From Bacteroidales bacterium (GTDB taxonomy: Bacteria > Bacteroidota > Bacteroidia > Bacteroidales > F082), in NCBI GenBank assembly GCA_013141455.1, contig JABFQW010000003.1, positions 1 through 64,000 of the forward strand: a stretch of DNA of 64,000 nucleotides, written 5' to 3'. Position 1 is the stretch's first letter, and each line of letters opens with the position of its first letter. The notes under the pieces are model-generated. The model was given only the letters and a program-made list of their open reading frames with translations, did no database searches and was not told where the DNA came from. A program made the position numbers and the translations under genes. Below, piece after piece: positions 92-1,564 of the stretch.

Positions 92-104
92 TTAGGCATA
101 GTAC
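92..104. repeat. Left arm of 13-bp inverted repeat flanking the Shedu-like gene
   Basis: The sequence TTAGGCATAGTAC is the reverse complement, with one mismatch, of GTATTATGCCTAA at 1264-1276. The two arms bracket the single AT-rich gene at 106-1230, and this arm ends one base from its stop codon. Read in the gene's orientation, the pair gives GTTAGGC before the gene and GCCTAAT after it, the arrangement expected at the ends of an integron-type gene cassette. Too little sequence lies to the left to see a complete site. Confidence 0.5.
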
Positions 105-105
105 T

Positions 106-1230
106 TTATTTTATATTGTTCTTTACGCATCTTGCTTGAGTTTTACCTACCATCGGAAAATAATTTCTTTCTTTATCATTAAATAGAAAATAGTTCCTTA
201 TTTCGGTTTTTTCTTGAAATTTAAAGGTTCTGCCGTACATAACTAATTCACCTTGATAAAAATTAGATAATTCATTACTACTTATATCCGAACCTAATGT
301 CATATTTAAGTATCCATCTTTGTTTTCTTGGTCTATTATGAATGAGAAATCAAAATCCATGCTATCAAGAACAATATCTTTAAAATATTTCCCATTAATT
401 TCGAGATTAATAAGTGAATTGTCACTTCCTATGCCAAAATCAAAACATATATAGCAAGGCTGACCATATTCAAACCCAAAACTTTTTTCTTTAATCCTCA
501 AATACTGTTTGTCTCCATTATTATCAATTATCCTATATGTTAAGTAATCATTTTTATCAATATATGCAGAAATCCTATTCCTAGTTAAGTCATTGCCCAA
601 ATCAAATATAAAATTCTGACTATTTCTAAGTCTGAAAATCTTTAATAAATAATGAATAGAACAACCTGGAAAATTCTCATATTTCGAGTATAAATTAGCT
701 CTAAAATATTCTAAATAATTTCTTATATCATCATAAGTTAGAAGTTCAATTTTTGCACCCTCGTTATATAATATTTGATGAACTTTTGTCCTATCAAGTC
801 CATCATTTCTGCCTGCAACAACTACTGATTTTAAATTTTTATGGATATCAACGTTATATTTTGAATTAAAATTATCTCTATTAACTTTTTCATCGAAAAA
901 TTCATTATACTCATGACATTGGGAAATGTAATCTCTAAAAGAGTTATAGAAATTAATTCTTTTCTTTTGAGATTTTAAAATTTCAGTATCAGGCCTTTTT
1001 AGTTCTAAAATCCACCATGTATCATCCATTTTTTGGACTAAAAAATCAGGAATGTTTTTGTTAGTGTCTGATTTCTGTATTCCATGAGGAATAACTTTTT
1101 TAAAACCTAGGGCATCAAAGATAATTCTATTGGTTTCAAACCATTCTTGAAAATATTCTTCGCCAAGATTAGCTGTTGATAACAATTCATCTAAAGAATT
1201 TAATGCATTTTCAAAATCTTGTCTTTTCAT
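106..1230 (-). CDS. Shedu-like (SduA/DUF4263) nuclease with C-terminal beta-sandwich-like domain
   Basis: The N-terminal half (about 55-175) carries a PD-(D/E)xK nuclease signature typical of the Shedu/DUF4263 family: PD at 61-62, ELK at 76-78, a conserved-looking Gln near 104, then a hydrophobic strand ending in AGR (139-141) and a TYDD motif at 165-168. Shedu proteins are single-gene antiphage nucleases, so an antiphage role is inferred. The usual Shedu architecture has the nuclease at the C-terminus with a variable N-terminal part. Here the nuclease is N-terminal and is followed by about 180 residues (205-340) rich in beta strands, with pieces such as YLTYRIIDNNGD and YQGELVMYGRTF that resemble LamG/concanavalin-like domains. 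The gene is clearly more AT-rich than scoAB next door and stands alone. The start follows a -7 box at 1291-1298. Nuclease assignment is fairly sure; the C-terminal fold is inference. Confidence 0.7.
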   Translation of the reverse strand: MKRQDFENALNSLDELLSTANLGEEYFQEWFETNRIIFDALGFKKVIPHGIQKSDTNKNIPDFLVQKMDDTWWILELKRPDTEILKSQKKRINFYNSFRDYISQCHEYNEFFDEKVNRDNFNSKYNVDIHKNLKSVVVAGRNDGLDRTKVHQILYNEGAKIELLTYDDIRNYLEYFRANLYSKYENFPGCSIHYLLKIFRLRNSQNFIFDLGNDLTRNRISAYIDKNDYLTYRIIDNNGDKQYLRIKEKSFGFEYGQPCYICFDFGIGSDNSLINLEINGKYFKDIVLDSMDFDFSFIIDQENKDGYLNMTLGSDISSNELSNFYQGELVMYGRTFKFQEKTEIRNYFLFNDKERNYFPMVGKTQARCVKNNIK

Positions 1231-1276: not shown

Positions 1277-1290
1277 CTAGGATATATCAC

Positions 1291-1298
1291 CAAAGATA
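1291..1298 (-). promoter_or_regulatory. -7 box upstream of the Shedu-like gene
   Basis: Read on the minus strand this is TATCTTTG, a perfect match to the Bacteroidota -7 consensus TAnnTTTG. It lies about 60 bases before the start codon and inside the region between the GTTAGGC motifs, so the gene could carry its own promoter. No convincing -33 TTG is seen at the usual distance. Confidence 0.4.
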
Positions 1299-1564
1299 TA
1301 GTACTTTTCTGAGATTTCATTTGCGCATACTACAATTCTTTCAATCAATTCCAGCTGTATTCTTTAAAGCGGCCTAACAATGTTCCTTGTCGCTTCGGGT
1401 GTTAAATGCGTGTAAACCACAATCGTTTTTGTGCTGCTGAGCCACGGCAATTGCAGTATCTAACTTATGTCAGTGTCGGTTTCTGACAAATGGGCTAAAT
1501 ATTATAATGGGTCATAGCGCTTCGCTTTAATTATTCCGTCTTTTTCGTCCTTGCTCATTTTGTA

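Follow-up and report, generated by a model that had tools for sequence, protein, structure and literature searches.

A Shedu-family nuclease with a nuclease-first layout and a predicted lectin-like C-terminal domain in a Bacteroidales genome

The Shedu gene and the repeated site beside it

The window analysed here comprises 64,000 nucleotides of a Bacteroidales genome (GCA_013141455.1; 4.39 Mb in 154 contigs) and begins at base 1 of contig C11 (JABFQW010000003.1). An intact Shedu-family open reading frame is encoded on the minus strand at the very start of the window (Table 1) and, as the window starts at the contig end, the downstream side of the gene is cut off. The gene carries signs of horizontal acquisition. 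Its G+C content is 26.7 %, as opposed to 40.9 % in window positions 1617-64000, and G923, a genome of the same genus, is syntenic exactly from 1616 onwards, at a gene read as CoA-transferase-like. On the basis of the low G+C content and of synteny starting only at this point, the Shedu gene sits in a variable and probably acquired stretch. Within the family it is confined to its own genome (1/173), the other 172 lacking it. The two arms of a 14-bp inverted repeat (93 %) lie on either side of it, at window positions 92-105 and 1263-1276 (TTAGGCATAGTACT / AGTATTATGCCTAA).

Table 1. Features of the Shedu locus, with positions in the window
Feature	Position	Strand	Description
Shedu-family gene	106..1230	-	374 aa; ATG at 1230, stop 106-108
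SduA_C / DUF4263 PD-(D/E)xK nuclease domain	727..1161	-	residues 24-168; Pfam PF14082, E 7.5e-11
Catalytic motif D62 ... E76-x-K78	997..1047	-	D and E in 29/29, K in 25/29 aligned Shedu nucleases
Q104 of SQCHEY motif	919..921	-	invariant, 29/29
Concanavalin-A-like (lectin/LamG) beta-sandwich domain, predicted	166..666	-	about residues 189-355; low-confidence model, Foldseek, VIA-align, weak Laminin_G_3 match of the homologue
25-bp site AAGTACTATATCTTTGGTGATATAT	1282..1306	-	central part of a longer repeat (about 1266-1323); immediately upstream of the Shedu gene, with further copies in the genome
Decayed 3' end of an integron-integrase-like tyrosine recombinase	1337..1501	-	contains stops; 52.7 % over 55 aa, E 1.3e-10

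Directly 5' of the Shedu gene lie a repeated site and the decayed end of a recombinase gene. With up to three mismatches, AAGTACTATATCTTTGGTGATATAT occurs at seven places in its own genome (C7 twice, C11, C14, C145, C69 and C28) and at six places in five other genomes among 100 genomes of the family, while a reversed-pattern control gave none among the matches listed. Two further diverged copies were found by BLAST on contig C109. The site contains TATCTTTG, which we take to resemble the Bacteroidota -7 promoter box, and it may thus double as promoter and recombination site. The decayed recombinase end aligns with an intact relative of 578 aa, at its residues 520-574. This intact tyrosine recombinase is encoded in two other genomes (G932 and G946), with about 11 bp between its end and the copy of the site that follows it; the integron-integrase model TIGR02249 is its best family, with a score of 220.7 bits that lies below the cut-off of 265. 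The two genomes have the genes upstream in common and differ in the cargo after the site, which in G946 can be read as a restriction-modification system. Elsewhere in the genome of the window, a further tyrosine recombinase gene (C95:363-2372) appears to be frame-disrupted near its 3' end, and is directly followed by what is presumably an IS91-type transposase gene.

Further copies of the site lie next to other defence genes elsewhere in the genome. Following the copies on C14, C7 and C69 (loci L050, L052 and L053) are a kinase matching PD-T4-6 (E 1e-51) and proteins with weak matches to Wadjet JetC and JetD (E 1.1e-5 and 2.3e-5) and to SIR2 (E 9.7e-4), with five of the nine proteins tested at these loci having no match at 0.01. 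On C7 and C109 a single gene lies between two directly oriented copies of the site, in a cassette-like arrangement.

The nuclease domain and the domain order

The Pfam profile SduA_C matches the window protein with 42.9 bits, against a cut-off of 27 bits, and thirteen PADLOC SduA models also match it (best E 1.9e-13), so that, at the sequence level, the similarity to Shedu nucleases lies far beyond chance. The original prediction, which placed a PD-(D/E)xK core at residues 61-78 and a Shedu-like AGR/TYDD end further on, is borne out by the residues P61-D62 and E76-L-K78, and A139-G140-R141 and T165-Y166-D167-D168, respectively, as is its proposed similarity to DUF4263. D62, E76 and K78 align with the PD-(D/E)xK residues of the Shedu family. 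In an alignment of 29 nuclease domains, taken from 33 proteins after removal of four with partial, disrupted or split matches, D62, E76, Q104 and G140 are invariant, with K78 retained in most. The window protein can be assigned to Shedu by its defining domain, and, as the catalytic residues are intact and invariant, this domain can be expected to cut DNA. A search of the window protein against NCBIfam gave no match, PHROGs gave nothing below E 0.09, and sequence searches of the PDB returned no solved Shedu chain. The nuclease fold is likewise absent among the PDB matches listed in the structure search with the window-protein model, in which a single domain may fill the match list (VIA-align).

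The nuclease-first order of the window protein is real, and is not the product of a fusion or frame artefact. The ATG is preceded by a stop two codons upstream, and the open frame comprises 376 codons for a protein of 374 residues; no N-terminal domain can therefore precede the nuclease. A homologue in another lineage, an uncultured Chlorobiaceae metagenome-assembled genome (CAJEXL010000011.1; a single locus, recorded as L002, L014 and L025), is 34-35 % identical from end to end; its first residue coincides with that of the window protein and its domains follow the same order, with its own SduA_C match at E 1.8e-14. A start-codon or frame artefact as the source of the order, which was considered as an alternative, is ruled out by the upstream stop and this homologue, and the layout as originally proposed stands.

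The neighbours of the Chlorobiaceae homologue are Septu, methyltransferase and helicase defence genes, with matches to PtuA (E 4.5e-93), PtuB (E 4.9e-52), a type II methyltransferase (E 8.2e-79) and PDC-S37 (E 8.2e-63), and the homologue is thus located in a defence island. The occurrence in defence islands that is expected of Shedu is seen here through the homologue, which is also what the proposed search for same-order relatives and their context has yielded. Besides the genome of the window itself, that of the homologue is the only one of 395 genomes of the phylum to encode a full-length relative, and no further ones were found in 198 genomes of the order, 395 of the class and 173 of the family (overlapping sets). 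The homologue is also the sole relative found in a scan of genome contigs; a genome-contig search with the window protein alone, a viral-contig search with three alignments and a tblastn search of phage genomes returned no relative. Searches of plasmids gave matches to the nuclease domain only (three records for each of two queries), none covering 80 %. In three of the four plasmid records examined the nuclease is C-terminal (L102, L103 and L105), and the fourth is a 214-aa nuclease-only frame.

The contrast originally drawn with known Shedu proteins, in which the nuclease is C-terminal, holds in part: the arrangement is real, but it is not unique to this protein. PF14082 has 34 matches in 28/395 Bacteroidota genomes, and 33 of these had a locus in which the residues following the nuclease could be measured (the frame of L097 is broken, and the domain is only partly matched in L098 and L099). 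The protein continues for at least 200 residues beyond the nuclease in 3/33 loci, namely those of the window protein (206), the Chlorobiaceae homologue (217) and L096 of genome G177 (204), followed by L094 of G205 with 89 residues and the remaining loci with no more than 67. L096 (388 aa) and L094 (277 aa) are nuclease-first and have no Pfam match beyond SduA_C, and the tail of L096 is unrelated to the C-terminal domain of the window protein (hhalign probability 0.5 %). In the PADLOC model PDLC00378 the nuclease occupies positions 4-191 of 287. On the nuclease tree, which contains long branches and gives the window clade a poorly supported sister group (87/68), the nuclease-first label takes three changes, with the starred branches forcing at least two. 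Since at least two changes of layout are required, the nuclease-first order probably arose more than once, and, together with L096, L094 and PDLC00378, these changes indicate from sequence that nuclease-first Shedu proteins exist more widely than the present pair. The genome of the window encodes a second Shedu protein (L012; C77:4838-5269) with the usual order, its nuclease being located at residues 180-323 of 345.

The C-terminal domain

The domain border of the window protein lies near residue 185. The C-terminal half beyond it has no Pfam match and no Pfam lectin family over the cut-off, while that of the Chlorobiaceae homologue has a sub-threshold match to Laminin_G_3 (PF13385; E 0.084; 13.5 bits against a cut-off of 27.6) which spans most of the profile. 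An AlphaFold2 model of the window protein, built from two sequences, has a mean pLDDT of 46.8 (low confidence); in it, residues 191 to 332 are all-beta and a helix comes next. The model of the homologue (pLDDT 35.5) has fewer C-terminal strands and was too poor to search. Foldseek comparison of the former model against the PDB matched concanavalin-A-like lectins at E 5.7e-5, with 39 chains at E <= 0.001; by title, nearly all matches listed are pentraxins, laminin-G/LNS domains, CBM40 modules and galectins, which we take to form one concanavalin-A-like superfamily, with TM-scores by target length of 0.14-0.49 among the matches listed. The best VIA-align match of the same model is the PilC minor pilin 7oa7 (Z 10.9; rmsd 3.0; 139 aligned; residues 189-355), and Z ranges from 9.6 to 10.9 over the best 50 matches (9.6 at rank 50), where values of 7-8 are usual when a model has no clear match. 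Many of the matches in a viral library are phage proteins named 'Concanavalin A-like lectin' or structural proteins. Concanavalin-A-like lectin-type domains are mostly secreted, whereas the window protein, whose hydropathy reaches a maximum of 0.66 over 19 residues, contains no strongly hydrophobic segment.

A concanavalin-A-like, lectin-like fold is thus likely for the C-terminal domain, at the low confidence of the model. The LamG- or jelly-roll-like partner originally proposed is in keeping with the beta-rich sequence, the Foldseek matches and the hint of Laminin_G_3 in the homologue, but its fold depends on that low-confidence model. The possibility that the C-terminal half is a displaced copy of the usual Shedu module was considered and finds no support in sequence. 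The hhalign probability was at most 2.1 % against 30 pieces (mostly N-terminal extensions of more than 60 aa, together with two C-terminal extensions and the two nucleases), with a two-sequence C-terminal profile as query, and no blastp match had an E below 1.1; this comparison, being one of sequences, is compatible with a shared fold. The original view that this part is not the usual N-terminal module is, at the sequence level, upheld. The domain is known so far, by sequence, only in the window protein and the Chlorobiaceae homologue.

Proposed function and relation to known Shedu systems

The best reading, to which we assign a probability of about 55 %, is that the window gene encodes a single-gene anti-phage Shedu nuclease of inverted architecture, gated by its C-terminal lectin-like domain. 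The N-terminal SduA_C domain would cut DNA, and the C-terminal beta-sandwich would stand in for the usual N-terminal sensor, either by recognising a ligand linked to infection or by controlling assembly and access to DNA, and would hold the nuclease inactive until recognition or assembly takes place. A phage glycan, glycosylated phage DNA or a virion protein would be candidate ligands. That the C-terminal domain should gate the nuclease is suggested by analogy with the Escherichia coli SduA, in which an N-terminal clamp senses DNA ends (available portions of PMC12904381), and that of Vibrio cholerae, which carries a GHKL ATPase domain at its N-terminus and depends on both domains (available portions of PMC12137116). 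Autoinhibition, ligand sensing and an anti-phage role would follow from this reading, and a Shedu subtype sensing a different trigger, as originally suggested, is plausible. More tentatively, and with considerable doubt, a cytosolic lectin-fold domain behind the nuclease may recognise either a sugar of the phage, such as one on modified phage DNA, or a phage structural protein, and so license DNA cutting.

Many of the folds matched by the C-terminal domain are oligomeric, as both pentraxins and galectins oligomerise, and it is conceivable, though less likely, that the beta-sandwich is an assembly or DNA-clamp module instead of a ligand sensor, with DNA ends triggering the nuclease and the clamp relocated from the N-terminal to the C-terminal side. 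The DNA-end sensing through a clamp that is reported for EcSduA in the accessible text of PMC12904381 is consistent with such a module, whereas the absence of any sequence relation between the C-terminal domain and the 30 Shedu pieces, mostly N-terminal modules, argues against it. The low pLDDT of the two models, the Laminin_G_3 match far below its cut-off and the low TM-scores among the matches listed would also fit another all-beta fold, with the lectin match an artefact of a poor model. This is unlikely, however, given that the Foldseek matches listed come almost exclusively from one superfamily, that the VIA-align Z-scores of the best 50 matches exceed those typical of models without a clear match, and that the sequence of the homologue hints independently at Laminin_G_3. 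The decayed state of the adjacent recombinase and the restriction of the gene to one genome of its family might further point to an inactive or non-defence nuclease, carried as decaying cargo at a chromosomal acquisition site, but with the frame and catalytic residues of the window gene intact, and its homologue in another lineage full-length and among defence genes, this explanation is highly improbable.

Shedu is described as one nuclease core driven by varied N-terminal sensors. The gated, inverted architecture favoured here would mean that the sensor slot can also sit behind the nuclease, as in the window protein and its homologue. This slot may be filled by a lectin-type fold, and the family would then have a novel type of input. 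If sugar or structural-protein recognition were true, the protein would be one in which a bacterial pattern receptor of the lectin type is joined directly to its effector. As a single gene is involved, and both its catalytic residues and the border between its domains are clear, lectin gating is directly testable.

Among known systems, Shedu has been described as a nuclease core under the control of another domain (available text of PMC12904381 and PMC12137116), with variable, N-terminal sensory modules (PMC12839542, in part). The parts of PMC12948488 and PMC12839542 available contain nothing on C-terminal Shedu partners, and no report of a nuclease-first Shedu with a lectin-type domain was found in the literature searched, the scope of which left out most subscription papers. 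The predicted beta-sandwich and its strand order liken the C-terminal domain to the concanavalin-A-like superfamily (pentraxin, laminin-G, CBM40 and galectin; Laminin_G_3), while, unlike the families of that superfamily, the window protein lacks a family-level sequence match over the cut-off. L096, L094 and PDLC00378 similarly have the nuclease near the N-terminus, but what follows it is either shorter than the C-terminal domain of the window protein or unrelated to it. The second Shedu protein of the same genome (L012) belongs to the same nuclease family (E 4.9e-20), but differs in its usual domain order and is not close to the window protein in the nuclease tree. With type I Shedu (SduA, DUF4263/PF14082) the window protein shares the single-protein form, the nuclease domain and the D, E-x-K, Q and G residues. 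In type I, according to the available part of PMC12409362, the regulatory domain precedes the nuclease, whereas in the window protein the nuclease begins at residue 24 and the partner domain comes after it. Given this start, the 376-codon frame and a homologue that begins at the same residue, the window protein is placed outside type I, and type II, which is named in the same portion of PMC12409362, may cover nuclease-first forms such as this one.
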